From: Pseudomonas sp. Q1-7
GTDB taxonomy: Bacteria > Pseudomonadota > Gammaproteobacteria > Pseudomonadales > Pseudomonadaceae
Direction of reading: 5' to 3'
Assembly: GCF_028010285.1 (NCBI RefSeq)
Contig: NZ_CP116304.1
Coordinates: 4,294,501 to 4,358,500, forward strand
DNA: 64,000 nucleotides
Shown: piece after piece, positions 12,273 through 28,159 of the stretch
How the letters are laid out: each line of letters begins with the position of its first letter
How positions within the stretch are numbered: the stretch's first letter is position 1
The notes under the pieces: model-generated
Told to the model about the DNA's origin: nothing
Databases searched by the model: none
What the model saw: the letters and a program-made list of their open reading frames with translations, nothing else
Position numbers and translations under genes: made by a program

Positions 12273-13514
12273 TCAACGGGCTCCGCCCCGGCTTCCCAGG
12301 GCGCGGATACGTGCCTCGTTGGCCTGCCACCAGCCCAGCAGCTCGCCACCCGCCATAGGCCTGGCAACGAAGTAGCCTTGGGCCTCGCCACACCCCAGGC
12401 TGTGCAGCAACGACCAGTCCTCCTGGGTTTCCACCCCCTCGGCGACCACCCGCAGGTCGAGCTTGCGGGCGATGTCCAGGGCACTCTCCAACAGCACGCG
12501 CAGGTGCAGGCTGCCACTGGCGCCGTGGACGAAAGCACGGTCCACCTTCAGTTCGGTGCAGGGCACACGGGAGAGCTGGAGCATGCAGGAGAAACCGGTA
12601 CCGTAGTCATCCACCGACAGGCCGAAGCCTCGCAGGCGCAAGCGGGCCAGGGTCCCCAGCGTGGTGCTGAGATCCGTCATGATGGCGCTCTCGGTAATCT
12701 CCAGGATCACGTAGCCAGGGTCGATGCCGCTGGCCGTCACCCGGTCGATGATGGCATCGGCCAGCAGCGAGTCCGCCAGGGAGCGAGCGGACACATTGAT
12801 GGAAAAACTCAGCCGCATGCCTGCGGCATGCCAGGCACGGCAATGCCGCAGTGCGATGTCGAGCATCTGCAGGGTCATATCGGAGATGAACTGGCTGCGC
12901 TCGATCAGTTCCATGAAGCAATTGGGGGTCAGCAGGCCGTGCTCGGGATGTTGCCAGCGGGCCAGCGCCTCGACACCGTGCAGTGTGCCATCGCGCAGGC
13001 TGACCTTCGGCTGGAAGTAGGCGACGAACTCCCGGTCGCGCAACGCGCGCTGCACGTCCCGCACGCTCAGGTCGGGCCCGGCGGCGCAGCCCTCATGGCT
13101 TTCGGAGCGCAATTGGACCACCGAAAATCGGCTCAGGCTGGAGGTCAGCTGCTCCATCAGCACCGGCTTCTGAAGCACCCCCAGGAGGCGTAACCCCAGG
13201 CTCTTGCCGAGATTCTCGACCACATTGAGCAGGGTACTCTCACGGGCGCTGGCAACGATCACCGCAAGGTCCAGGCCGAGGTTGACCAGTTCGTGGAGCA
13301 CCTGCACACCATCCATGCCAGGCATTTCCAGGTCGAGGATGATCGCCTCGATCTGTGGATTGGCTTTCAGCTTGGCAATGGCCTCAAGACCGTCGCTGGC
13401 CTGCTGGACGTTCTCGATTCCCATGTCGCGACACAGCTGCACCATGAAATGCCGCTGCAAGTCGCTGTCGTCGATGACCAGCAAGTGTTCGGGAAGTCTG
13501 TCCGGCATCTTCAT
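12273..13514 (-). CDS. Response regulator with EAL c-di-GMP phosphodiesterase domain
   Basis: A 413-residue protein with an N-terminal CheY-like receiver (LLVIDDSD acidic pocket, phospho-Asp in IILDLEMPGMDG, Lys in LQKPV) and a C-terminal EAL domain. Catalytic-site residues look complete: VEALARW, the Asn in INVSARS, the Glu in EITES, the DD in VDDYGTGF, the Lys in ELKVDR, AEGVET and the Gln in AQGYF. It should therefore hydrolyse c-di-GMP under phosphorylation control, like RocR/PvrR-type proteins. It is the last gene of the chemosensory operon. ATG 13514 was chosen; an in-frame TTG at 13529 would overlap the cheB stop. Confidence 0.9.
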   Translation of the reverse strand: MKMPDRLPEHLLVIDDSDLQRHFMVQLCRDMGIENVQQASDGLEAIAKLKANPQIEAIILDLEMPGMDGVQVLHELVNLGLDLAVIVASARESTLLNVVENLGKSLGLRLLGVLQKPVLMEQLTSSLSRFSVVQLRSESHEGCAAGPDLSVRDVQRALRDREFVAYFQPKVSLRDGTLHGVEALARWQHPEHGLLTPNCFMELIERSQFISDMTLQMLDIALRHCRAWHAAGMRLSFSINVSARSLADSLLADAIIDRVTASGIDPGYVILEITESAIMTDLSTTLGTLARLRLRGFGLSVDDYGTGFSCMLQLSRVPCTELKVDRAFVHGASGSLHLRVLLESALDIARKLDLRVVAEGVETQEDWSLLHSLGCGEAQGYFVARPMAGGELLGWWQANEARIRALGSRGGAR

Positions 13515-13525
13515 GTTCGCCTCGC

Positions 13526-14587
13526 TCAACGCCAGTCCATGAGAACCTTGGGAATCTCGTCCAGGGCAATCACCTGATCGACTCCCCCCATCCTGATCGC
13601 TTCCTTCGGCATGCCGAAGACCACGCAGCTCTCTTCATCCTGGGCGCAGGTCCGCCCCCCCGCCTCCCGAAGCTCCTTGAGCCCGCGCGCGCCGTCGTCG
13701 CCCATGCCGGTCATGATCACCGCCAGCGCATTGCGCCCGGCCTGCACGGCGGCGGAACGGAACAGGACGTCCACCGACGGCCGATGCCGGCTGACCAGCG
13801 GCCCGTCCTTCACCTCCACCAGGTATTGCGCGCCGCTGCGCCTGACCAGCATGTGCTTGCCGCCCGGAGCGATCAGCGCCAGCCCCGGCAACAGGCGGTC
13901 GCCGTCGCGCGCCTCGCGTACGCCGATGGCACAGATCGAATCCAGGCGCTGGGCAAAGCTGCGGGTAAAGTGCTCGGGCATGTGCTGGACGATGGCGATG
14001 GCCGGTGCGTTCGTCGGCAACTGGCGAAGCACCTGCTCCAGCGCCTGGGTACCGCCGGTGGAGGTGCCCAGCAGGACGATGCGTTCGGTGGTGCGCAGAT
14101 TCCGCAGGCCCGGTGCCGGCAGGTCGACCAGCGCGTCAGCGCCCAAGCGTGCCTGCCGCTCCATCGGCGCAGCGGCCATGGGCCGTACCCTGGCCCTGGC
14201 GGCGGTGCGAATCGCGGTGACCAGTTCCTGGGCGCTGTCCTGGAGAAAATCGCGCAAGCCGGCGGTCGGCTTGCAGATGACTTCCACCGCTCCGGCGGCC
14301 AGGGCCTGCAGGGTGACGTCGGCCCCCCTTTCGGTCAGGGTAGAACAGATCACCACCGGTGTCGGCCGGGTCGACATGATCTGGCGCAGGAAGGTGATAC
14401 CGTCCATGCGCGGCATTTCCACATCGAGCAGAATCAGATCGGGCCAGTTTCGCGCCATCTTCTGCTGGGCGAGCAGAGGGTCCATGGCGGTACCTATCAC
14501 GTCGATATCGCGATGGGCGGCCAGCATTTGCTGCATCACCTCGCGCATCACCGCGGAATCGTCAATGATCATGACCTTGATGCTCAC
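13526..14587 (-). CDS. cheB: Chemotaxis protein-glutamate methylesterase CheB
   Basis: A 353-residue CheB with a receiver domain ([11 protein letters not shown], phospho-Asp in [13 protein letters not shown]) and a methylesterase domain. The catalytic triad is visible as Ser in [10 protein letters not shown], His in VQHMPEHF and Asp in [10 protein letters not shown]. The start is GTG 14587, chosen for the AAGGAGG seven nt upstream and the GTGA overlap with the cheD stop. It would demethylate or deamidate the operon's receptors to set adaptation after phosphorylation by CheA. Confidence 0.95.
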
Positions 14588-15090
14588 GGCAACGCCTCCT
14601 TGCCCGGCTGGACCATCAACGCGGCGCCACGGCGCACCCAGACCTCGCCACTGGCAAGGTCGAAACGGATGTACCGGCATCCCTCACCGCCCAGGTCACG
14701 CCCGACGACGCGAACACCCGCGTCCTTCATCAGGCGCTCGACGAACTGGATGTTCTGCCGGCCGATGTCGCTGCACGGTTTTGCGGCCGAGCCGGCCAGG
14801 CTGCGCGCCCCACCGAAGAGCTTGACCTCGGCCTCGGACAGCTTCAACGCATGCACCCGCGCCTGTTGCTTGAGCCAGATCCAGGCATCGCTGCCGTAAC
14901 GGCCGTCGAGATCGCGGGAATGCTCGAACACCCGTCGCGTACCGGGCAGCTGGAAATGGCACATGCCGCCCAGCCGCGCGCCGGGATACCAGAGCACGAT
15001 GGCAATGCAAGGGCCTAGCAGGGTCTCCACCGCCACCTCTCCCTTGCCGAAATGCAGCTCGCCCGGGTTCAGGAAACGCCTCGAAATCAT
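14584..15090 (-). CDS. cheD: Chemoreceptor glutamine deamidase CheD
   Basis: A 168-residue CheD. The family signature is visible: [26 protein letters not shown] near residues 24-50, containing the conserved Cys-adjacent His region (MCHF), and the later [26 protein letters not shown]. It overlaps cheR and cheB by 4 bp each. It probably deamidates receptor Gln residues, adding a third adaptation enzyme beside CheR and CheB. Confidence 0.92.
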
Positions 15091-15929
15091 CGATCCACCT
15101 TGCGGTAGATGGACGATGTCACCAATTCCAGCGGCAGCGCGGTGTCGTGCAGTGCCTCCGAATGGCCAACCATCAGCCAGCCACCGGACTTCAGCCGGTC
15201 AACCACGTTGCGCAAGACCTGCAGCTTGGTCGGAACGTCGAAATAGATGAGCACGTTGCGCAGCAGGATCAGGTCGAACAAGCCCAGCTCCGGCGCGGAC
15301 TTGATCAGGTTGCCCTGGCGAAACTCGACCCGCTCGCGCAGGTCGCGCTCCACCAGGAAATGCCCCTCGTAACGGTCCTTGCCCTTGAGGCAATAGCGCT
15401 TGAGCAGATGCATGGGAATCCGCTCGCCCCGCGCCATCACATAGAGCCCGCGACGCGCGCTGCGCAGCACCTGCTGACTGATGTCGGTGGCGACCACGCT
15501 CCAGGAGCTGTGGGGCCGACCACTGTCCAGCAGCATGGCCAGGGTGTAGGCCTCCTCCCCGGTTGAGCTGGCGGCGCTCCAGACACGAAAGTCCTCCCGG
15601 TCGACCACTTCGGGAAGGATCTTCTGCTGCAGGAATTCGAAGTGCTTGGGTTCACGGAAGAAATAGGTTTCGTGGGTGGTGATCAGGTCGATCGCCACCT
15701 CCAGCTCGTCTTCGCCCGACGGCGAGATCAGGTGCTGGTAGTAGGCCTGGTAGCTGTCCAGACCGAGGGCCGAAAGCCGCTTGGCCAGGCGCCCGCAGAT
15801 CAAGGGCTTCTTCACCGGCTGGAGCTGCAGGCCGACCCGTTCGTGGAACAGGCGCTGCATTTGCCGGAACTCCTGCTCGCTGAGCGCGATATCCAGTCCG
15901 CCACTCATTGTCACGCAGCCATCCGCCAT
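15087..15929 (-). CDS. cheR: Chemotaxis protein methyltransferase CheR
   Basis: A 280-residue SAM-dependent receptor methyltransferase. There is an N-terminal helical domain and a Rossmann-like SAM domain with VWSAASSTGEEAYTLAMLL, the NLIKSAPELGLFDLILLRNVLIYF core and GGWLMVGHSEAL. ATG 15929 was chosen because AGGTGG is 6 nt upstream, immediately after the cheW stop; a second Met lies 7 codons further in. It would methylate glutamates on the two operon receptors. Confidence 0.95.
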   Translation of the reverse strand: MADGCVTMSGGLDIALSEQEFRQMQRLFHERVGLQLQPVKKPLICGRLAKRLSALGLDSYQAYYQHLISPSGEDELEVAIDLITTHETYFFREPKHFEFLQQKILPEVVDREDFRVWSAASSTGEEAYTLAMLLDSGRPHSSWSVVATDISQQVLRSARRGLYVMARGERIPMHLLKRYCLKGKDRYEGHFLVERDLRERVEFRQGNLIKSAPELGLFDLILLRNVLIYFDVPTKLQVLRNVVDRLKSGGWLMVGHSEALHDTALPLELVTSSIYRKVDR

Positions 15930-15936
15930 GGCCACC

Positions 15937-16467
15937 TCAGGACGCCACCTGGTCGAGCGCACCAACCAGCTCCGCCAGTTCGTCGAGAGACAAGACCTGG
16001 GGAATGTTGAGGACGATGATGAATTGCTCGTTCTGCCTGAGGATGCCGGAAATGAAATCGGCCCGAATATGGGCGCCGAACGCCGGACGCGCCTCCAACT
16101 GCTGGCCGTCCACCGCCAGCACCTCGTTCACCGCGTCGACCATGATGCCGAGCAGTTGCAGGCCATCGCCCTGCTCCACCTCGACGATCACCACGCACGT
16201 GCGCCGGGCAATCGCCGTGTGTTCGCGACCGAAGCGCACCGCCAGGTCGATGACCGGTACCACGGCGCCGCGCAGGTTGATCACCCCGCGCAGGAACTCG
16301 GGCATCAGCGGAATCCGCGTCAGGCCACCGAACTCGATGATCTCGCGGATGTGTTCGATGGGCAGCGCGAACAGCTCTTCCCCCAGGGTCAGGGTGAGGA
16401 ACTGCTGCGTGGAAGACTCCGTCTGGACCCGGGTCTTGCCCGTGGCCTGGATAGGCAGGCTTGTCAT
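15937..16467 (-). CDS. cheW: Chemotaxis adaptor CheW
   Basis: A 176-residue CheW-fold coupling protein that links receptors to CheA. Seen are QQFLTLTLGEELFALPIEHIREI (first beta-barrel), INLRGAVVPVIDLAVRFG and a C-terminal FIIVLNIPQVLSLDELAEL helix. It sits between the receptor gene (11 bp gap) and cheR (7 bp gap). Confidence 0.95.
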   Translation of the reverse strand: MTSLPIQATGKTRVQTESSTQQFLTLTLGEELFALPIEHIREIIEFGGLTRIPLMPEFLRGVINLRGAVVPVIDLAVRFGREHTAIARRTCVVIVEVEQGDGLQLLGIMVDAVNEVLAVDGQQLEARPAFGAHIRADFISGILRQNEQFIIVLNIPQVLSLDELAELVGALDQVAS

Positions 16468-16478
16468 GCGGCGAGCTC

Positions 16479-18125
16479 CTAGAAACGGGTGAAGGCCGAT
16501 TCGTCGATGGGCTCATCCAGCAACGTGCGACGCGGGCGTTCCCGAGACATCACGCGCGGCGCCGGCCCGGATTGGCGATCGGAAGGCGGCGGCAGATGTC
16601 GGCTGCTGGCAAGCGAACGCTCCTTGATCTGGAAGAACTGGATCATCTCCTGCAACTGTACGGCCTGGCCGCTCATCTCCTCCGAGGTCGACGACAACTC
16701 CTCGGAGGCCGAGGCGTTCACCTGGGTGGTCTGCGCCAGTTGAGTCACCGCCAGGTTGATCTGCTCCAGGCCGGTGTTCTGCTCCCGCGACGCCGAGGCG
16801 ATCTCCTGCACCAGGTCCGCGGTCTTGCGGATCGACGGCACCATCTTCTCCAGCAGGTCGCCGGCCCGCTCGGCCAGGGTCACGCTGTCCGACGCCACCG
16901 CGCCGATTTCCTGCGCCGCCACCTGGCTGCGCTCGGCCAGCTTGCGCACTTCCGCCGCCACCACCGCGAAGCCCTTGCCGTGGTCTCCGGCCCGCGCCGC
17001 CTCGATGGCCGCGTTCAGCGCCAGCAGGTTGGTCTGGTAGGCAATGTCGTCGATGATGCCGATCTTGTCGGCGATCTGCCGCATCGCCTCGACCATCTCG
17101 CGCACTGCCGTGCCACCCTCTTCCGCATCCTTCGATGACTGGCTCGCCATACCATCGGTGATCCGCGCGTTCTCGCTGTTCTGCGCCACGGTCGCCGCGA
17201 TCTGCTCCACCGAAGCGCTGGTCTCCTCCACGTTCGCCGCCTGTTCCGAGGCGTTCTGGCTCAACGCCTGCGCCGACGCCGCCACCTGTTCCGAGGCCGA
17301 CGCCAGCGAATCCGCGGTGATGCGCACGTCGCCCATGATCGAGCGCAGCTTCAGCACCATCTGCCGCAGGCTGTAGAGCATGCTGTGCTGGTCGCCGTCA
17401 CGCAGAACGATATCCACGGTGAGATCGCCGGAGGCGACCCGTTGCAGGCATTCGGCTGCCTCGCGGGGTTCACCGCCGAGCTGGCGCAGCAGGCTGCGGC
17501 TGATCAGGGTGCAGAGCAGCCCGGCCAGTAGCAGGGCGGCAACGATGCAGACGATCACCATCATGAAAACCTGCTGGAAACGATCGTGGGCCAGGTCATA
17601 TTCATGCTTGGCGACGCGCAACTGCAGATCGACCAGTTTGCTGAAACGGTCGGTGACCGGATCGATCTTCTGGTACAGCTCGTTGGCGATGAAGTGCTCC
17701 AGCGCCATCTGGTCGCGATTGTCCAGGATACGCCCGAGTTCACTCACGGACAGGTCCGCCATCTTGAGCAGCGCGTTGAGCTCGTCCGCCAACGCACGCT
17801 CCTCGTTCACCATGCTGGTGGAGGCGTAGCGATTCCAGCCGTCGCGAATATCGCTCTCGGCGCGTTGCACGTTGCGCAAGCCCTCCTGCCAGCCCAGAGC
17901 ACCGATGCGCACCTTGTGCGTGGTGTCGACGATGTTCACTGCATAGCGATCAGATATCAGCTTGAGGTCCTTCAACGGCACCACGCGGTCGTTGTAGACC
18001 GTATCCAGTCCCTCATTGGTCGCCCGCATGCCCAGTATCCCGAGCAAGCCGATTCCCAGCAGGAAGAGGATAAGAACCCCCGCCACCACGATGAGGCGAG
18101 TCGCCACTTTCATCTTGTCCAACAT
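16479..18125 (-). CDS. Methyl-accepting chemotaxis protein with 4HB-type sensor
   Basis: A 548-residue receptor. TM1 is at about residues 10-32, followed by a roughly 155-residue periplasmic helical region of four-helix-bundle (4HB_MCP) type and TM2 at about 188-210. A HAMP-like linker and a cytoplasmic signalling hairpin follow, with its tip at [20 protein letters not shown]. The last ~45 residues form a proline/arginine-rich tail that ends AFTRF. This fits the x-aromatic-x-x-aromatic pattern of C-terminal pentapeptides that tether CheR/CheB in other bacteria. It lies between cheA and cheW. Confidence 0.92.
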
Positions 18126-18164: not shown

Positions 18165-20363
18165 TCAGGCACCCAGGGTGCCGACCAGCCCCGCCTGGGC
18201 CTGTCTTTCCGCAGCGACACAGGCGCGCTGGATCAAGTGTGGTACATCGAGGATCAACGCCACGCTCCCGTCGCCGAGAATCGTCGAGCCACTGAGCACC
18301 TTGTTCATTGCAAAAATCTGCCCGAGGGGCTTGATCACCGCCTGAAACTCGCCCCCCAACTGGTCGACCACCACCCCGGCGCGCTCTTTCCCAAACTGCA
18401 GGACCACCAGGCTCTCCCGCTGCCCTTCCCCCGGTGCGAGGCCGAACAGTTCGCGTACCCGCACGTAGGGCAAGGGTTCGCCGCGCAGGCTGACCAGGTT
18501 GTGCCGGTTGTCCTGCTCGACCAGGTCGACGCACTCCACCACGGAGTCCAACGGCAGCACGAAGGACTCCCCGCCCACCCGCACCAGGAAACCGTCGATG
18601 ATCGCCAGCGTCAGTGGCAGGCGAATGCGCACCCTGGTGCCCTCGCCGTACTCGCTGATCACATCCACTTCGCCGCGCAACTGCTCGATATTGCGGCGCA
18701 CCACATCCATTCCCACGCCACGCCCGGAAAGGTTGGTGACCTGCGCGGCAGTGGAGAAGCCGGGCTCGAAGATGAGGCGGAAAATCTCGTTGTCGCCGAG
18801 CATCTGGTCAGGCTGCACCAGCCCCTTCTCGACGGCCTTGGCGAGAATGCGCTCGCGGTCCAGGCCGCGGCCGTCGTCACTGACCTCGATGACGATGCTG
18901 CCAGACTCGTGGTAGGCGTTCAGGCGCAGCGTGCCGCGCGCCGGCTTGCCCTTGGCATGGCGCTGCTCCGACGGCTCGATGCCGTGGTCCATGGCATTGC
19001 GCACGATATGCATCAGCGGATCGGCGAGCTTCTCCACCATGGACTTGTCCAGTTCGGTGTCGGCGCCGGTGACCAGCAGTTCGATGTCCTTGCCGAGCTC
19101 CTTGCTGATATCCCGCACCACCCGCGGGAAGCGCTGAAACACTTCGCCAATGGCCACCATACGCAAGGACAGCGAGGCATCGCGGATACGCTCGACCAGG
19201 CTGGTGACCCCCTCGTTGGCCTCGGCCATGGCCGTGGTGTCGCCCTGGCGCAGGGACAGGCTGGCGGCGGCACCGGCGATCACCAACTCGCCCACCAGGT
19301 TGATCAACTGGTCGAGCTTGCCCGCCTCGACCTTGATGAAGACCTGCTCGTGGTTGCGCTTTTCCTCTACCTGCTTCTGCTTGTGCAGGGCCGCGGTCAC
19401 CACCGGCGGCGCCACCAGACGCTCCTTCACCAGCATGGCACCCAGCTGCGCGGGGGGGTTGGCTTCGTTCTGCCGGACCAGCACCCGCTCCAGCTCGAAG
19501 GGCGTCAGCGCGCCGCTACGCACCAGGATTTCGCCAAGTCGGGCCGGGGTTTCGGGCAGGCTGGCGATCAGGCTGTTGAACGACTCGATGGCGCTGTGCG
19601 GCGGCATGATGTGTAGCCGGCAATCGTCGCGGATGAATTCGAAGGCGTCTTCGATCTCCTGCTTGCTGGCACTGGAGTCGAACGCGATTTCATAGCCGAG
19701 GTAACTGCTCTCCGGGTCGAAGCCGGTGGCCTCCGGCAGGTTGTCGGTCAGGGTGTGCAGGTAGACGATGCGCCCCAGTTTCTGCAGGTAGCGGATGAAT
19801 GACAGCGGGTCCAATCCGTTGCGCAGGACATCGGCATTGGGCCGCAGGGAGATGTGCCAAAGATCGCTGCTCACACCCTCCTGCGCGAGCACGTCGATAC
19901 GCTCCGGATTTGGCGCACGGGAGAGAACCGGACCGCTGGCGCTGTTGGCGGCCGCTGGCACCGTCGGCACAGCCGACTCAAGGTAACGGTTGAGCTGTTC
20001 GAGCAGGTACTGGCGCCGTTCCGGGTCGGGGTCGTGGGCCTCCTGCCCGTCATCCACCGCATCGAGCATCCGTCCGATGTAGTCGCCGCAGCTGAGCAGC
20101 AGCGAGAGCATCGCCGCATCCAGATCGCGTTCGTCGTTACGCACCTGGTCCAGCAGGCTTTCCACCACATGGGTGAAGCTGATCAGCGACTCCAGACCGA
20201 ACAGGCCGGCCGACCCCTTGATGGTGTGTGCGGCACGGAAGATCGCGTTGACGCGGTCGCTGCTGTAACCGATGGTTTCGATCTCCAGCAGGGCCTCTTC
20301 CATCGCGGCCAGGAGTTCGCGGCCTTCCTGCACCAGCGCGCCGCGTGCCTGATCCAGATTCAT
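18165..20363 (-). CDS. cheA: Chemotaxis histidine kinase CheA with MshEN-like repeats
   Basis: A 732-residue CheA. Domains: HPt at 1-105 with phospho-His 46 in AAHTIKGSAG; an alpha/beta regulatory (P2-like) region at 165-258; an unusual insert at 275-329; dimerisation and kinase domains at about 340-590 with HIVRNAMDHGIE (N box), DDGRGLD (G1) and GRGVGMDVV (G2); and a CheW-like P5 domain at about 590-722. The insert holds two back-to-back 24-residue units starting RLGEILVRSG and QLGAMLVKER, each ending in Gln, with the spacing of MshEN c-di-GMP-binding motifs. The gene overlaps the STAS gene by 4 bp (ATGA). Kinase activity looks intact. Confidence 0.93.
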   Translation of the reverse strand: MNLDQARGALVQEGRELLAAMEEALLEIETIGYSSDRVNAIFRAAHTIKGSAGLFGLESLISFTHVVESLLDQVRNDERDLDAAMLSLLLSCGDYIGRMLDAVDDGQEAHDPDPERRQYLLEQLNRYLESAVPTVPAAANSASGPVLSRAPNPERIDVLAQEGVSSDLWHISLRPNADVLRNGLDPLSFIRYLQKLGRIVYLHTLTDNLPEATGFDPESSYLGYEIAFDSSASKQEIEDAFEFIRDDCRLHIMPPHSAIESFNSLIASLPETPARLGEILVRSGALTPFELERVLVRQNEANPPAQLGAMLVKERLVAPPVVTAALHKQKQVEEKRNHEQVFIKVEAGKLDQLINLVGELVIAGAAASLSLRQGDTTAMAEANEGVTSLVERIRDASLSLRMVAIGEVFQRFPRVVRDISKELGKDIELLVTGADTELDKSMVEKLADPLMHIVRNAMDHGIEPSEQRHAKGKPARGTLRLNAYHESGSIVIEVSDDGRGLDRERILAKAVEKGLVQPDQMLGDNEIFRLIFEPGFSTAAQVTNLSGRGVGMDVVRRNIEQLRGEVDVISEYGEGTRVRIRLPLTLAIIDGFLVRVGGESFVLPLDSVVECVDLVEQDNRHNLVSLRGEPLPYVRVRELFGLAPGEGQRESLVVLQFGKERAGVVVDQLGGEFQAVIKPLGQIFAMNKVLSGSTILGDGSVALILDVPHLIQRACVAAERQAQAGLVGTLGA

Positions 20364-20698
20364 GGACGTACCCTCGGGTTGCTGAGCGGCAGCACCAGCG
20401 GGTCCCCCAATTCCGAGACCAGGTTGAGCAGTTCGATGACCTCGGTGACACAGGAGGAATGGTTGACCAGGCTCAAATGCTTGTCCTGCCGGCGCGCCTC
20501 GCGCTTGAGCAGCAGCAGCAGTTGCACGCCGCTGCTGTCGCAGTCTTCGACGTCGGCGAGATCCAGGTCCAGCGCGGACTGGTTGGACAAGACTGCGAGC
20601 AGTTCATCCTTCAGATGGGCCGCCTGGTAGATATTGAGTTCGCCCTGAATGGCAACGAGCGGACGGTCACCTTCGGTGAGGTAGCAGATCTTGGCCAT
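20360..20698 (-). CDS. STAS-domain protein (anti-sigma-antagonist-like)
   Basis: A 112-residue single STAS domain. The phosphorylatable-serine region is intact (LADVEDCDSSGVQLLLLLKREA), and VAIQGELNIYQAAHLKDEL is the typical first strand and helix. It is co-translated with cheA and follows cheY by 10 bp. STAS proteins bind regulators or serve as phosphoswitch partners. In a chemosensory operon it may be an output or localisation partner, but no cognate serine kinase or phosphatase is visible in the window. Confidence 0.85.
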   Translation of the reverse strand: MAKICYLTEGDRPLVAIQGELNIYQAAHLKDELLAVLSNQSALDLDLADVEDCDSSGVQLLLLLKREARRQDKHLSLVNHSSCVTEVIELLNLVSELGDPLVLPLSNPRVRP

Positions 20699-20708
20699 CC
20701 GGAAGCCC

Positions 20709-21077
20709 TCAGGGCAGGATCAGCTTGGACACTGCATCGAGCAGCACCGGTGGCTGGAAAGGCTTGACCACCCAGGCGCGAACCCCCGCGGCCTTGCCTT
20801 CGGCCTTCTTTGCCTCGCCGGCTTCGGTGGTCAACATGATCACGGGAGTGAACTTATAGGCCGGCAATTGCTTGGCGGATTTGACGAAGGTGATGCCGTC
20901 CATGACGGGCATGTTCACGTCGGACACGATCAGATTGATCTTGCGACCATCCAGCTTGCCCAGCGCATCTTTTCCGTCGCAGGCCTCCAGCACGTCATAG
21001 CCGGCACCTTTCAGCGCGATGCCGACGACCTGCCTGAAGCTCGCCGAGTCATCCACCACCAGCACGGTCTTGCCCAT
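20709..21077 (-). CDS. cheY: CheY-like single-domain response regulator
   Basis: A 122-residue receiver. Visible are the acidic pocket VLVVDDSASFR, phospho-Asp in LIVSDVNMPVMDG, the Thr in IMLTTEAGEA and the Lys in WVVKPFQPP. It resembles CheY proteins of alternative (non-flagellar F6-type) systems that start MGKTVLVVDDSAS. It lies 30 bp after the first receptor gene and is a likely phospho-acceptor for the operon's CheA. Confidence 0.93.
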   Translation of the reverse strand: MGKTVLVVDDSASFRQVVGIALKGAGYDVLEACDGKDALGKLDGRKINLIVSDVNMPVMDGITFVKSAKQLPAYKFTPVIMLTTEAGEAKKAEGKAAGVRAWVVKPFQPPVLLDAVSKLILP

Positions 21078-21106
21078 AGACTTGATTCCTGTTTCCTGAC
21101 AACGAT

Positions 21107-22240
21107 TCAGAAGAAAGTGACGGAGGATTGCTGGACACCCGCCGCGTGCTGGCCGACATGCACGCGCTGCTGCTCCAGGGTGGTGTAGCTCGCCTCCAGG
21201 TTCCGCAGCCACTCACGGCTGTCGGGAATGCCTGACTCATCCAGGCGCGCGCAAAGGCGCGCCATGTCGGAGATGACAAGGGAAGTGATCTGGCTGACTC
21301 GGTCCTGGAACTGCAGGTCCACCAGCACAGCGTTGATCGTCCGCTCGATGCCGCGATTGGTATCCTGCAGCGCCCGCAGGCGGTGTTCCTGGGTAGCCAT
21401 GCCCCGGCCCAGTTCATCCAGCACCTTGGCGACTATGCCCTCGGCCTCCTGGATGCTGGCGCTATTCATCTCGGTCATGCGCTCGGCGTTCTCCACCATG
21501 GCCTCCATGGCACGTCCCATGACCTGTACCTTCTCGGTGATCCGTGCGCCAGTGCCGCCGGACAGGGACGACAGCTTGCGCACCTCGTCCGCGACCACGG
21601 CAAACCCCCTACCGCTCTCGCCGGCGCGGGCGGCCTCTATGGCGGCATTGAGTGCCAACAGATTGGTCTGCGAGGCAATGGTGGCAACGTCTTCGGCCAT
21701 GCCATGCAGCTCGGTGACAAAGCTGCTCAGCTCACGGATTTCCACCAGGAAGCGCTCGCGTTCCTCGCGGCTGTCGCCCAGCCGCTGCACCGCCCCGGGC
21801 AACTCAACCTGGGCGCCGTGGAGCACGTCGGAGACACGCGCACCGTCCTGTTCGGCGCTCAGCTCCAACACATCACGAATCTGCCGGCTCATCTCGACAA
21901 AGCACTCGGCCAACCCGCCGGTGGCATCCCGGGTCTGGCCCTGCACCAGCTCGATGTTGCCCTGCCAGAGGGGCAGCACGCGCGCCACCAGCTCACGCAG
22001 GGCTAGCAGTTCCTCGTCGGCCTGTTGCGTCTGGAAGGCAGTGGAAGCTTCGCTCGCGTCCGGCGCGTCGATACGCGGACGCGCCAGGAACATGAACAAC
22101 CAGCCGCACAGGCCCGCCGCGCCGACCAGGCCCTGCCACCACACATCGGCCAGCATCAGGGGAATCACCAGCAGCAGGGTGCAGCCACACGCCACCCAGG
22201 CGCGTGGCGCGCTCGCCATCAGTGATGAATTCTTGGCCAT
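21107..22240 (-). CDS. Methyl-accepting protein lacking a periplasmic sensor
   Basis: A 377-residue receptor that opens the chemosensory operon. ATG 22240 has GGAGAGG 6 nt upstream. Two hydrophobic helices (about residues 12-28 and 33-47) are separated by only a few residues, so almost nothing is exposed to the periplasm. The rest is cytoplasmic helix with the signalling tip [33 protein letters not shown]. The C-terminus reads QQSSVTFF. Sensing must be intracellular, membrane-based or through a partner protein. Confidence 0.9.
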
Positions 22241-22468
22241 GCAGACCTCTCCAGACTTCTCGGAAGCATTCAAGCCCGCTTACCAAAGGGGCCACCCCGC
22301 CAGGGGAAGGGGTCGACAGGCATCGATTACCAGCCTCGCCGGCGCCTCTAGTGGCAACCTGACATATCCCGATCCAGCGAATCGAAGCTTAAGAAAATCG
22401 GGCGCAACGGCTATCAGCGATTTGGGAAGCGGGACTAGGTACTTTTACTGAATCGAGGCCCCACCCAT

Positions 22469-25231: not shown

Positions 25232-26626
25232 ATGAATATTTCGAACAAGAACATTGCGCAGTGGAGAGAGTACGTCGCCGGTTGCCTGGACTTCCGCCCG
25301 GAGGACGGCGTGTACCGTATCGCCCGGGACATGTTCACCGAGCCGGAGCTGTTCGACCTGGAGATGGAACTGATCTTCGAGAAGAACTGGATCTACGCCT
25401 GCCACGAGAGCGAGATCCCCAACCCGCATGACTTCATGACGATGCGCGCCGGCCGCCAGCCGATGATCATCACCCGCGACGGCAACGGCCAGCTGCACGC
25501 GCTGATCAATGCCTGCCAGCACCGTGGCGCCACCCTCACCCGCGTCGGCAAGGGCAACCAGTCCACCTTCACCTGCCCCTTCCACGCCTGGTGCTACAAG
25601 AGCGACGGCCGCCTGGTGAAGGTCAAGGCGCCGGGCGAGTACCCGGAGGGCTTCGACAAGGCCACCCGTGGCCTGAAGAAGGCGCGCATCGAAAGCTACA
25701 AGGGTTTCGTCTTCATCAGCCTGGACGTCGCCGCCAGCGATTCCCTGGAAGACTTCCTCGGCGACGCCAGGGTGTTCTTCGACATGATGGTGGCCCAGTC
25801 CCCCACCGGCGAGCTGGAAGTGCTGCCCGGCAAGTCCGCCTACACCTACGACGGCAACTGGAAGCTGCAGAACGAGAACGGCCTGGACGGCTATCACGTC
25901 AGCACCGTGCACTACAACTATGTGGCCACCGTGCAGCACCGCCAGCAGGTCAACGCCGAGAAGGGCGGAGCCAGCGACACCCTGGACTACAGCAAGCTGG
26001 GCGCCGGCGACGCCGAGACCGACGACGGCTGGTTCTCCTTCAACAACGGCCACAGCGTGCTGTTCAGCGACATGCCCAACCCCACCGTGCGCCCCGGCTA
26101 CGCCAGCGTGATGCCGCGCCTGGTGGAGGAGTTCGGCCAGGCCAGGGCGGAGTGGATGATGCACCGCCTGCGCAACCTGAACATCTACCCCAGCCTGTTC
26201 TTCATGGACCAGATCAGCTCGCAGCTGCGCATCGTGCGCCCGCTGGCCTGGAACAAGACCGAGGTCATCAGCCAGTGCATCGGCGTCAAGGGCGAATCCG
26301 ACGCCGACCGCGAAAGCCGCATCCGCCAGTTCGAGGACTTCTTCAACGTCTCCGGCCTGGGCACCCCCGACGACCTGGTGGAATTCCGCGAGCAGCAGCG
26401 CGGCTTCCAGGGTCGCCTGGAGCGCTGGAGCGACATTTCCCGCGGCTACGGCAAGTGGGTCACCGGCGCCACGCCGAACAGCCAGACCCTGGGCATTGCC
26501 CCGGTGATGACCGGCACCGAATTCACCCATGAAGGCCTGTACGTGAACCAGCACGCCAACTGGCAGCGCTTCCTGCTCCAGGGGCTGGACCAGAAAGCCC
26601 TGAAACCGCAGGAGGTGCAGGCATGA
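25232..26626 (+). CDS. antA: Anthranilate 1,2-dioxygenase large subunit
   Basis: A 464-residue Rieske non-heme iron oxygenase alpha subunit. The [2Fe-2S] ligands are C95-x-H97 in ACQHRG and C115-x2-H118 in CPFHAW. The catalytic iron His residues are in GYHVSTVHYNY. The N-terminal text (WREYVAGCLDFRPEDGVYRI and on) matches AntA rather than BenA. With AntB and AntC it converts anthranilate to catechol, CO2 and ammonia. The antA stop overlaps the antB start by 4 bp. It is driven from the antR-antA gap. Confidence 0.93.
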   Translation: MNISNKNIAQWREYVAGCLDFRPEDGVYRIARDMFTEPELFDLEMELIFEKNWIYACHESEIPNPHDFMTMRAGRQPMIITRDGNGQLHALINACQHRGATLTRVGKGNQSTFTCPFHAWCYKSDGRLVKVKAPGEYPEGFDKATRGLKKARIESYKGFVFISLDVAASDSLEDFLGDARVFFDMMVAQSPTGELEVLPGKSAYTYDGNWKLQNENGLDGYHVSTVHYNYVATVQHRQQVNAEKGGASDTLDYSKLGAGDAETDDGWFSFNNGHSVLFSDMPNPTVRPGYASVMPRLVEEFGQARAEWMMHRLRNLNIYPSLFFMDQISSQLRIVRPLAWNKTEVISQCIGVKGESDADRESRIRQFEDFFNVSGLGTPDDLVEFREQQRGFQGRLERWSDISRGYGKWVTGATPNSQTLGIAPVMTGTEFTHEGLYVNQHANWQRFLLQGLDQKALKPQEVQA

Positions 26627-27114
26627 ATCCGCAGCTGCAATACCAGATCGAACAGTTCCTTTACGCGAAGTCCGCCCTGTGCGACGCCCAGGACTGGGAC
26701 GCCTACCTCGACCTGTTCGACGAGCAATGCGAATACCACCTGCCGCAGTGGGACTCCGAGCACGAGTACACGAAGGACCCGAAGCGCGGCATGTCGCTGA
26801 TCTACTACGCCAACCGCTCGGGCCTGGAAGACCGGGTGTTCCGCATTCGCACCGGCAAGGCCGCCTCGACCATCCCGATGCCGCGCACCCTGCACCAGAT
26901 CGGCAATGTGCGCATCGCCGAACGCGAGGACGGGCAACTGGAGGTGAAGGCCAACTGGCACACCCTCTACTACCGGCTGGGACAGAGCGAGCAGTTCTTC
27001 GGCTACGCCACCTACCACCTCAGGCCCGTCGGCGAGAGCTGGAAGATCACCCGCAAGCACATCGTGCTGCTGAACGACACCATCAACTCGGTGCTCGATT
27101 TCTACCACCTCTGA
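26623..27114 (+). CDS. antB: Anthranilate 1,2-dioxygenase small subunit
   Basis: A 163-residue beta subunit of a ring-hydroxylating oxygenase (SnoaL/NTF2-like cone fold). Characteristic text includes EQFLYAKSALCDAQDWDAYLDLF and the WKITRKHIVLLNDTINSVLDFYHL C-terminus. It packs with AntA in an alpha3-beta3 assembly and has a structural role. It overlaps antA by 4 bp and precedes antC by 19 bp. Confidence 0.93.
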   Translation: MNPQLQYQIEQFLYAKSALCDAQDWDAYLDLFDEQCEYHLPQWDSEHEYTKDPKRGMSLIYYANRSGLEDRVFRIRTGKAASTIPMPRTLHQIGNVRIAEREDGQLEVKANWHTLYYRLGQSEQFFGYATYHLRPVGESWKITRKHIVLLNDTINSVLDFYHL

Positions 27115-27133
27115 TCCACCGGATGTACGTGCC

Positions 27134-28159
27134 ATGAATCACAAGGTCGCCTTCAGTTTTGCCGACGGCAAAACCCTGTTCTTTCCCGTGAAGGGCAACG
27201 AAATCCTGCTCGACGCCGCCCTGCGCAACGGCATCAACATCCCGCTGGACTGCCGCGAGGGCGTCTGCGGCACCTGCATGGGACGTTGCGAGTCCGGCAG
27301 CTACGAAATGGACTATGTGGACGACGAAGCCCTGTCGGCCAAGGACCTGGAGCAGCGCAAGATGCTCACCTGCCAGACCCGCGTGCAGTCCGACGCCTCC
27401 TTCTACTTCGACTTCGACTCGTCGCTCTGCGGCGCGTCGAAGACGGTGCAGGAGCGCGGCGTCGTCACCCACGTGGAACAGGTCTCGCCGACCACCGCCA
27501 TCCTCCACCTGGATGCCGGCGTCGACAGCCAGCAACTGGACTTCCTGCCGGGCCAGTACGCCCGCCTGCAGGTGCCGGGCACCGACGCCAGGCGCTCCTA
27601 TTCCTTCGCCAACCGGCCCAACGCCGAGAACAAGCTGCAGTTCCTCATTCGCCTGCTGCCGGACGGGGTGATGAGCAACTACATCCGCGAACGCTGCAAG
27701 GTGGGCGACGAGATCCGCTTCGAGGCCCCGTTGGGCGCCTTCTACATGCGCCACATCGCGAAGCCGCTGCTGCTGGTAGCCGGCGGCACCGGCCTGTCGG
27801 CGTTCCTCGGCATGCTCGACGACATCGCCGCGAACGGCGGCTGCGGCCAGCCGGTGCACCTCTATTACGGCGTGCGTCAGGTTGCCGACCTCTGCGAGTT
27901 GCACCGCATCCAGGGCTACGCCGCACGCATTCCGGGCTTCAGCTTCACCCCGGTGATCAGCGACGAAGGCCAGGATTGGGACGGCAAGCGCGGCTACGTG
28001 CCCGAGCACTTCGACGCCACCGCCCTGCGCGAGGCGCCCTTCGACATGTACCTCTGCGGCCCGCCACCGATGGTCGAGTCGGTGAAGGCCTGGCTCACGG
28101 AAAACGCCATCGACAACGGCCACCTGTATTTCGAGAAGTTCACCGAGAGCACTACCTGA
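27134..28159 (+). CDS. antC: Anthranilate 1,2-dioxygenase electron-transfer component
   Basis: A 341-residue class-IB reductase. The N-terminal plant-type [2Fe-2S] ferredoxin has C40, C45 and C48 in DCREGVCGTCMG and a fourth Cys in MLTCQTR. The FAD domain follows with RRSYSFANRP, then the NAD(P)H domain with LLLVAGGTGLSAFLGML and MYLCGPPPMVESV. It passes electrons from NADH to the AntA Rieske centre. It is the third gene of the antABC operon. Confidence 0.93.
   Translation: MNHKVAFSFADGKTLFFPVKGNEILLDAALRNGINIPLDCREGVCGTCMGRCESGSYEMDYVDDEALSAKDLEQRKMLTCQTRVQSDASFYFDFDSSLCGASKTVQERGVVTHVEQVSPTTAILHLDAGVDSQQLDFLPGQYARLQVPGTDARRSYSFANRPNAENKLQFLIRLLPDGVMSNYIRERCKVGDEIRFEAPLGAFYMRHIAKPLLLVAGGTGLSAFLGMLDDIAANGGCGQPVHLYYGVRQVADLCELHRIQGYAARIPGFSFTPVISDEGQDWDGKRGYVPEHFDATALREAPFDMYLCGPPPMVESVKAWLTENAIDNGHLYFEKFTESTT

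Follow-up and report, generated by a model that had tools for sequence, protein, structure and literature searches.

Gene organization of the locus

The window, i.e. the whole 64,000-nucleotide stretch of DNA analyzed, contains a run of chemotaxis genes on the minus strand, in the order MCP - cheY - STAS - cheA - MCP - cheW - cheR - cheD - cheB - REC-EAL. The features of the cluster, and those found within cheA, are the following:

21107..22273, minus strand: first MCP of the cluster (MCPsignal)
20709..21212, minus strand: CheY-like receiver
20360..20698, minus strand: STAS-domain protein, immediately upstream of cheA (STAS_2, 2.4e-17)
18165..20363, minus strand: cheA, 732 aa, comprising P1 (Hpt), P2-like, MshEN-like, P3, P4 and P5 regions (Pfam)
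19605..19859, minus strand: predicted P2-like alpha/beta domain, residues ~169-253 (full-length AlphaFold2 model, elements E169-175 to E248-253)
19344..19592, minus strand: whole helical module as predicted, residues ~258-340 (AlphaFold2)
19470..19541, minus strand: MshEN motif I, residues 275-298, RLGEILVRSGALTPFELERVLVRQ
19449..19469, minus strand: spacer between the motifs, 7 residues (299-305), from a gapless 60-residue alignment with PilB
19377..19448, minus strand: MshEN motif II, residues 306-329, QLGAMLVKERLVAPPVVTAALHKQ
19185..19340, minus strand: P3 dimerisation domain of CheA (Pfam PF02895 and model)
16479..18125, minus strand: second MCP, with a four-helix-bundle sensor (4HB_MCP_1, MCPsignal)
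13526..16467, minus strand: cheW, cheR, cheD and cheB
12273..13529, minus strand: REC-EAL protein, encoded by the last gene downstream in the run (Response_reg and EAL matches)

The STAS match is shared by 77 of 80 related loci. The REC-EAL protein, judged by its domains, is possibly a c-di-GMP phosphodiesterase acting as an output of the system. Elsewhere in the window, at 25232-28159 and beyond an AraC-like regulator, lie candidate genes for the large subunit, the small subunit and the reductase of a ring-hydroxylating dioxygenase, judged by their resemblance to such a set.

Pfam places Hpt at residues 8-104 of CheA, H-kinase_dim at 342-393, HATPase_c at 448-585 and CheW at 591-713, i.e. the order of phosphotransfer, dimerisation, kinase and CheW-like domains by which the CheA class is recognized. 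Residues 104-342 give no Pfam match above the cut-offs, and the P2-like domain is not matched by a Pfam P2 model. The three nearest relatives listed are all from Pseudomonas, with 78-80% identity. In other CheAs, the site between P2 and P3 is occupied by a flexible linker.

Two 24-residue units of MshEN type precede P3

The first-pass annotation had described two 24-residue units at this site, resembling the c-di-GMP-binding motifs of MshEN domains; they are found exactly where it had placed them, at residues 275-298 and 306-329. Motif I, which conforms to RLGxx(L/V/I)(L/V/I)xxGhhxxxxLxxxLxxQ, retains all of R1, L2, G3, L6, G10, L17, L21 and Q24. Motif II retains L2, G3, L6, L21 and Q24, and deviates at three positions: Q for R at position 1 and R for G at position 10, both already pointed out, and, additionally, V for L at position 17.

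The NCBIfam model NF053729 ("cyclic di-GMP-binding domain, MshE-related") describes the tandem motif in 53 positions, and aligns end to end (positions 1-53) with CheA residues 275-329, with an E value of 2.2e-8. Its score is 33.8 bits, under the 38-bit cut-off, when the whole CheA is scanned by hmmscan; 39.5 bits, as a sum of partial matches, for the 82-residue linker alone; and 40 bits in the genome search, where both halves are counted together and CheA is flagged above the cut-off. When homologous linkers are analyzed (42 of 49 non-redundant ones, the other 7 being left out), all 42 match NF053729 at 1e-3, and 37 of them at 1.2e-9, a value calculated as roughly equal to the cut-off score of the model.

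A profile built from the same 42 linkers was compared with the PDB. Of the 16 sequences found at E<=10, the top 14 are PilF, PilB and MshE ATPases: the best is Thermus PilF (7.4e-20), with residues 293-360 as the best domain, while MshE (5htl) scores 3e-6. The window linker alone finds Geobacter-type PilB (6olj, 5tsg) at 3.9e-6, in a gapless alignment of 60 residues, followed by Thermus PilF at 6.2e-6; its remaining matches, MshE not being among them, have E values of 0.1 or worse.

The frequency of such units by chance was estimated with the relaxed form of the 24-residue pattern published by Wang et al. 2016, searched in 200 shuffled versions of each of 81 linkers. Only one occurrence was found in the 16,200 shuffled sequences. 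The pattern fits unit 1 of the window CheA, but not unit 2; in the linkers of the 81 homologous CheAs it occurs twice in 3, once in 41 and never in 37. As a criterion, the regular expression was rejected as too strict, since 78 of the 81 CheAs fail the double motif, and, used alone, it understates the MshEN case. The spacer, 7 residues long in the window CheA, ranges from 5 to 18 in 78 of the 81 homologues, as measured on an automatic alignment; the three rows of that alignment which look degenerate have spacers of 1, 3 and 5 residues, once each.

The resemblance of the CheA units to MshEN motifs far exceeds chance. A fortuitous or low-complexity likeness, arising within a helical linker, would agree with the silence of Pfam model PF05157 on CheA and on the 42 linkers. 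It is refuted, and its probability made negligible, by the full-length match to NF053729, by the E value of 7e-20 in the PDB profile search, by the single pattern match in 16,200 shuffles and by reversed survey sequences (see below), none of which scores under E 0.5.

PF05157, proposed in the first-pass annotation as a check, does not match the window CheA at E<=10, nor any of the 42 linkers at E<=1, so that in its literal form the check came out negative. The model itself is unsuitable for the purpose: in a MshEN-containing ATPase (L101), NF053729 lies at 32-84 and PF05157 at 85-171, and PF05157, which sits after the motifs, therefore does not describe them. Judged by sequence, CheA contains the binding subdomain alone, with no recognizable MshEN_C subdomain. 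This suggests that receptor inventories resting on PF05157 would overlook stand-alone binding subdomains. A separate comparison of A1 with the open reading frames of L001-L008, the PF05157 places of the same genome, gave only noise (best E 2.1).

A second Pfam family, DUF4388 (PF14332), matches 33 of the 42 linkers at E<=1, the best at 9.5e-5. It was rejected as a rival assignment: it also falls on the MshEN motifs of L101, L106 and L112, and the matches are therefore read as a common short motif.

Predicted structure of the module

AlphaFold2 predicts five helices in the region (258-268, 276-283, 288-300, 307-313 and 319-340), the last four of which form the expected four-helix tandem; structure prediction, the other computational check proposed, thus agrees with the MshEN reading at the level of a model. 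In the full-length prediction, pLDDT averaged over blocks of ten residues is 85-92 over 261-330, and 73 for 331-340. For the linker modeled alone, the best model has a mean pLDDT of 85, the five models ranging from 64 to 85.

The full-length model shows P1 helices up to residue 129, a disordered linker at 131-165 (pLDDT below 50), the P2-like domain at 169-253, the module at 258-340 and the first helix of P3 from residue 347. The last helix of the module is predicted to stop some 6 residues short of the P3 helix, with a low-confidence break at 340-342. The pTM of the model is 0.42, and the relative placement of domains is therefore not to be trusted.

A Foldseek search gave no match at E<=0.001. 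Ranks 1-3 are all held by the N-terminal MshEN-type domain of Xanthomonas citri PilB, with probabilities of 0.92-0.96, TM-scores of 0.54-0.55 and E values of 1.1-1.5; as these are above 1, the structural search supports an MshEN fold, but is no proof of it.

Conservation and ligand contacts

Conservation was evaluated on a set of 81 CheAs, composed of the window protein and the best 80 of 555 relatives, and is therefore measured among near kin. A full-length alignment was made with 42 of these 81 sequences. The module is retained in 76 of the 81; the five degenerate proteins were removed before counting. In the 76 intact sequences, G3 and Q24 are invariant in both motifs (76/76 each). For motif I, the other counts are 76 for L17, 75 for L21, 72 for L2 and 63 for R1. 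For motif II, they are 74 for L or I at position 2, 69 for V17, 65 for L21 and 31 for G10, while position 1 is occupied by P in 42 sequences, Q in 20, R in 6, K in 4, L in 3 and H in 1.

The tandem that had been claimed between the P2-like region and P3 is therefore borne out by NF053729, by the PDB profile search and by family conservation; profile match and conservation show the P2-P3 hinge of CheA to be an MshEN_N-type module.

Most of the positions which touch the ligand in MshE are conserved in the CheA family. In MshE, contacts are made by R1 (stacking), L2, L17, L21 and the backbone of G3 and the next residue, and Q24 contacts ribose and phosphate (PMC5013675). Position 1 of motif II, variable in the CheA family, varies in PilF as well. 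In its GSPII-C domain motif II starts at P335, and an affinity for c-di-GMP like that of MshE is reported (PMC11731258, PMC12002112). GSPII-B has K167 and L196 at positions 1 and still binds c-di-GMP at 6 nM; its motif II departs from the consensus also in missing one residue (PMC11731258). Position 1 of motif II is thus tolerant in proven binders. In a reconstructed GSPII-A domain, however, serine at this position abolished binding, and an N-terminally elongated helix 1 contributes to blocking the ligand (PMC12002112). In the CheA model, helix 1 begins at residue 276, directly at motif I.

These data bear on a reading in which CheA has kept the MshEN fold and the window copy has lost the ligand, the module serving as a docking surface or a rigid spacer. 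The N-terminal PilB domain of X. citri, which plays such a part for PilZ, would be its model. The Q1, R10 and V17 substitutions in window motif II fit such a loss, as do the top Foldseek matches, which are to that PilZ-binding domain, and the fact that in some homologues the whole module can disappear. In the X. citri domain, though, the residues that bind the nucleotide are reported to be absent (PMC8389850), whereas the window CheA and all 76 intact homologues have G3 and Q24 in both motifs; moreover, GSPII-B of PilF is a proven binder that also has no R at either position 1. Loss of the ligand is regarded as rather unlikely. Binding of c-di-GMP is predicted as likely for the CheA family, and as probable, with a little less assurance, for the window CheA itself.

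Loss of the module and relation to the REC-EAL gene

The module motifs are lost in 5 of the 81 homologues, and are thus not essential to this type of CheA. The losses are seen in L015, L018, L025 and L040 (Herbaspirillum group) and in L020 (Silvimonas), all of which keep the REC-EAL gene. In a CheA tree computed after removal of the linker (by a quick method, rooted at the midpoint, with SH-aLRT support), the five degenerate proteins and the window CheA fall in one clade of 11 members, with a support of 100. The apparent losses require two changes on this tree, in Silvimonas and in the Herbaspirillum group respectively. Against a model built without the rows of this clade, the degenerate CheAs score 9.4 bits or less, compared to 81.8-101.3 for the six intact members. 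Lineages which have lost the module and kept the rest of the cluster, such as these, provide natural controls.

It had been suggested that a kinase reading c-di-GMP and an operon-encoded EAL phosphodiesterase would make a feedback loop. The presence of a REC-EAL gene could be judged at 41 of the 80 related loci (39 were not judgeable). Such a gene lies in or beside the cluster at 28 of these 41, namely at 5 out of 5 degenerate and 23 out of 36 intact loci. At 3 of the 36 intact loci an EAL match is present without a receiver match; at the remaining 10, where DNA was read for at least 1 kb past cheB, no EAL match over 80 bits is found within the range searched, which extends at most ~6 kb to each side of cheA, so that a gene lying farther away would be missed. 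For five loci (L011, L012, L015, L018, L020), the EAL gene was assigned to the cluster by coordinates adjoining the locus, the contig numbers being not always identical in the two sources.

As a conserved arrangement, the loop is not supported by these counts: REC-EAL is present at all 5 loci without the module, and none is seen at 10 intact ones. No positive association of the module with REC-EAL emerges, and MshEN-EAL as a conserved pairing was rejected. A stricter version, in which c-di-GMP binding by CheA and the phosphodiesterase of the operon are dedicated to one negative feedback loop, can draw on the single gene run shared by cheA and REC-EAL in the window, and on the 23 of 36 judged intact loci where REC-EAL lies in or beside the cluster. 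The same version has to accommodate the five clusters which keep REC-EAL after losing the module, the ten intact ones where none is seen and the three more with an EAL match lacking a receiver, and is held to be improbable. Since the EAL output persists after the sensor is lost, and the sensor is also found with no visible EAL, the loop is not what maintains the module. Within the window lineage a feedback loop is possible.

Distribution in other CheAs and genomes

The linker profile finds a match at 1e-3 in 137 of 299 genomes of the phylum to which the window belongs. Among 30 loci listed, 12 carry a matching CheA: the window, six close relatives and five more distant ones (L096, L097, L099, L102, L108). 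By comparison with the window genes, the remaining listed loci are not CheA. NF053729 also gives matches in 9 of 14 control genomes, above the cut-off in 5.

A broader survey started from PF02895, which identifies 144 CheA-type places in 70 genomes; the best 100 of the 144 by score, excluding the window CheA, were read, two of them from short stretches (L141, L171). The reading frame was verified by a P3-like pattern, detected by script in 69 of the 100, P3 sequence being visible in the other 31. A related tandem is found directly before P3 in 21 of the 100 (E<0.01, search space 100); the same sequences, when reversed, give no tandem under E 0.01, the best being 0.57. By eye, 3 of the 21 (L225, L144, L145) have both motifs complete and a normal spacer. 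In the other 18 the tandem is compressed, at most one residue separating the motifs, and most of these 18 are without Q24 of motif I. This variant is seen in L202, L217, L201, L180, L173, L205 and others, with motif I ending near position 21-24. Ten segments, nine from the 21 survey positives and one from L096, were scanned with NF053729: 8 pass the cut-off, in several cases through two half matches added together.

The genome of the window strain consists of a single contig of 5.78 Mb. It has four CheA-type places above the PF02895 cut-off, and among them NF053729 matches the window CheA alone. In the whole genome two proteins are above the NF053729 cut-off, the window CheA and a 238-aa protein; the latter is encoded by an open frame (L226, C1:4667106-4667264) with a score of 62.5 bits. 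Further genomes from the same family also have motif-bearing open frames of 238-241 aa (L106, L110, L111). Three to five tandem matches to the MshEN motif, partly overlapping, are found in L115, L116, L109 and L113.

The distribution of the module is probably wider than its Pfam annotation suggests. A more general proposal, that an MshEN-type P2-P3 tandem is widespread and largely unannotated in alternative CheAs, and that gating of arrays by c-di-GMP (or, for the compressed variants without Q24 of motif I, by another ligand) is common, is put forward tentatively, the odds being somewhat against it.

A proposed role for the module

In the usual view, c-di-GMP lies downstream of chemosensory systems, as in WspR-type outputs, or has flagella, CheY-like proteins and receptors as its targets. 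The reading we favor, with a probability of roughly 0.6, is that the MshEN_N-type hinge of CheA binds c-di-GMP and gates the receptor output of the kinase according to its cellular level. As the conserved contacts suggest, one c-di-GMP is most likely bound across both motifs, as in MshE and PilF. Binding would order the module, and so might alter the access of P1 and P2 to the P4 kinase, or the packing of P3. It should affect the kinase because, in the model, the last helix of the module reaches within ~6 residues of the P3 helix; to this extent we infer an effect of the module on kinase output. The result might be a tuned phosphorylation of CheY, CheB and the REC-EAL protein of the cluster, with receptor output gated, in either direction, by the c-di-GMP level of the cell; in the window lineage, the REC-EAL protein could in turn feed back on that level. 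If CheA does read c-di-GMP, the second messenger would act inside the kinase, and the motile or sessile state of the cell would set the gain of the array. As a module, the P2-P3 hinge is both accessible and portable.

Comparison with known systems

The module shares with the MshEN_N subdomain of Vibrio cholerae MshE (5HTL; NF053729) the two 24-residue motifs, the G3, Q24 and leucine contact positions and, as predicted, the four helices. Unlike MshE, the window CheA has a spacer of 7 residues instead of 5, Q1, R10 and V17 in motif II and no PF05157 match, and its module is fused inside a histidine kinase. The GSPII-C domain of Thermus PilF, the best-scoring PDB domain, opens its motif II with P, as do 42 of the 76 CheA relatives; PilF, in contrast to CheA, is a pilus ATPase. 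The PilB proteins of 5tsg, 6olj and 5zfr align with the window linker without gaps, and in the first two the spacer has the same length as in CheA; they differ in the ATPase context and in an R as the first residue of motif II.

Work on the F6, F8 and ACF systems of Pseudomonas syringae serves as background (PMC11253619). SgmT of Myxococcus xanthus is a c-di-GMP-binding orphan hybrid histidine kinase (PMC3509222). Like the window CheA in the reading proposed here, it is both a histidine kinase and a c-di-GMP receptor, though it is no CheA. SgmT binds c-di-GMP through a GGDEF domain. Among the matches listed in the open-access literature, titles and the opening lines of abstracts describe no CheA as a c-di-GMP binder by way of the MshEN domain. 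CheA is, on the other hand, among the partners with which MshEN is reported to associate (Wang et al. 2016, PMC5013675). In the passages of that paper dealing with MshEN-CheA fusions, CheA is named as a partner without discussion (PMC5013675); the window CheA thus belongs to a kind already named in print.
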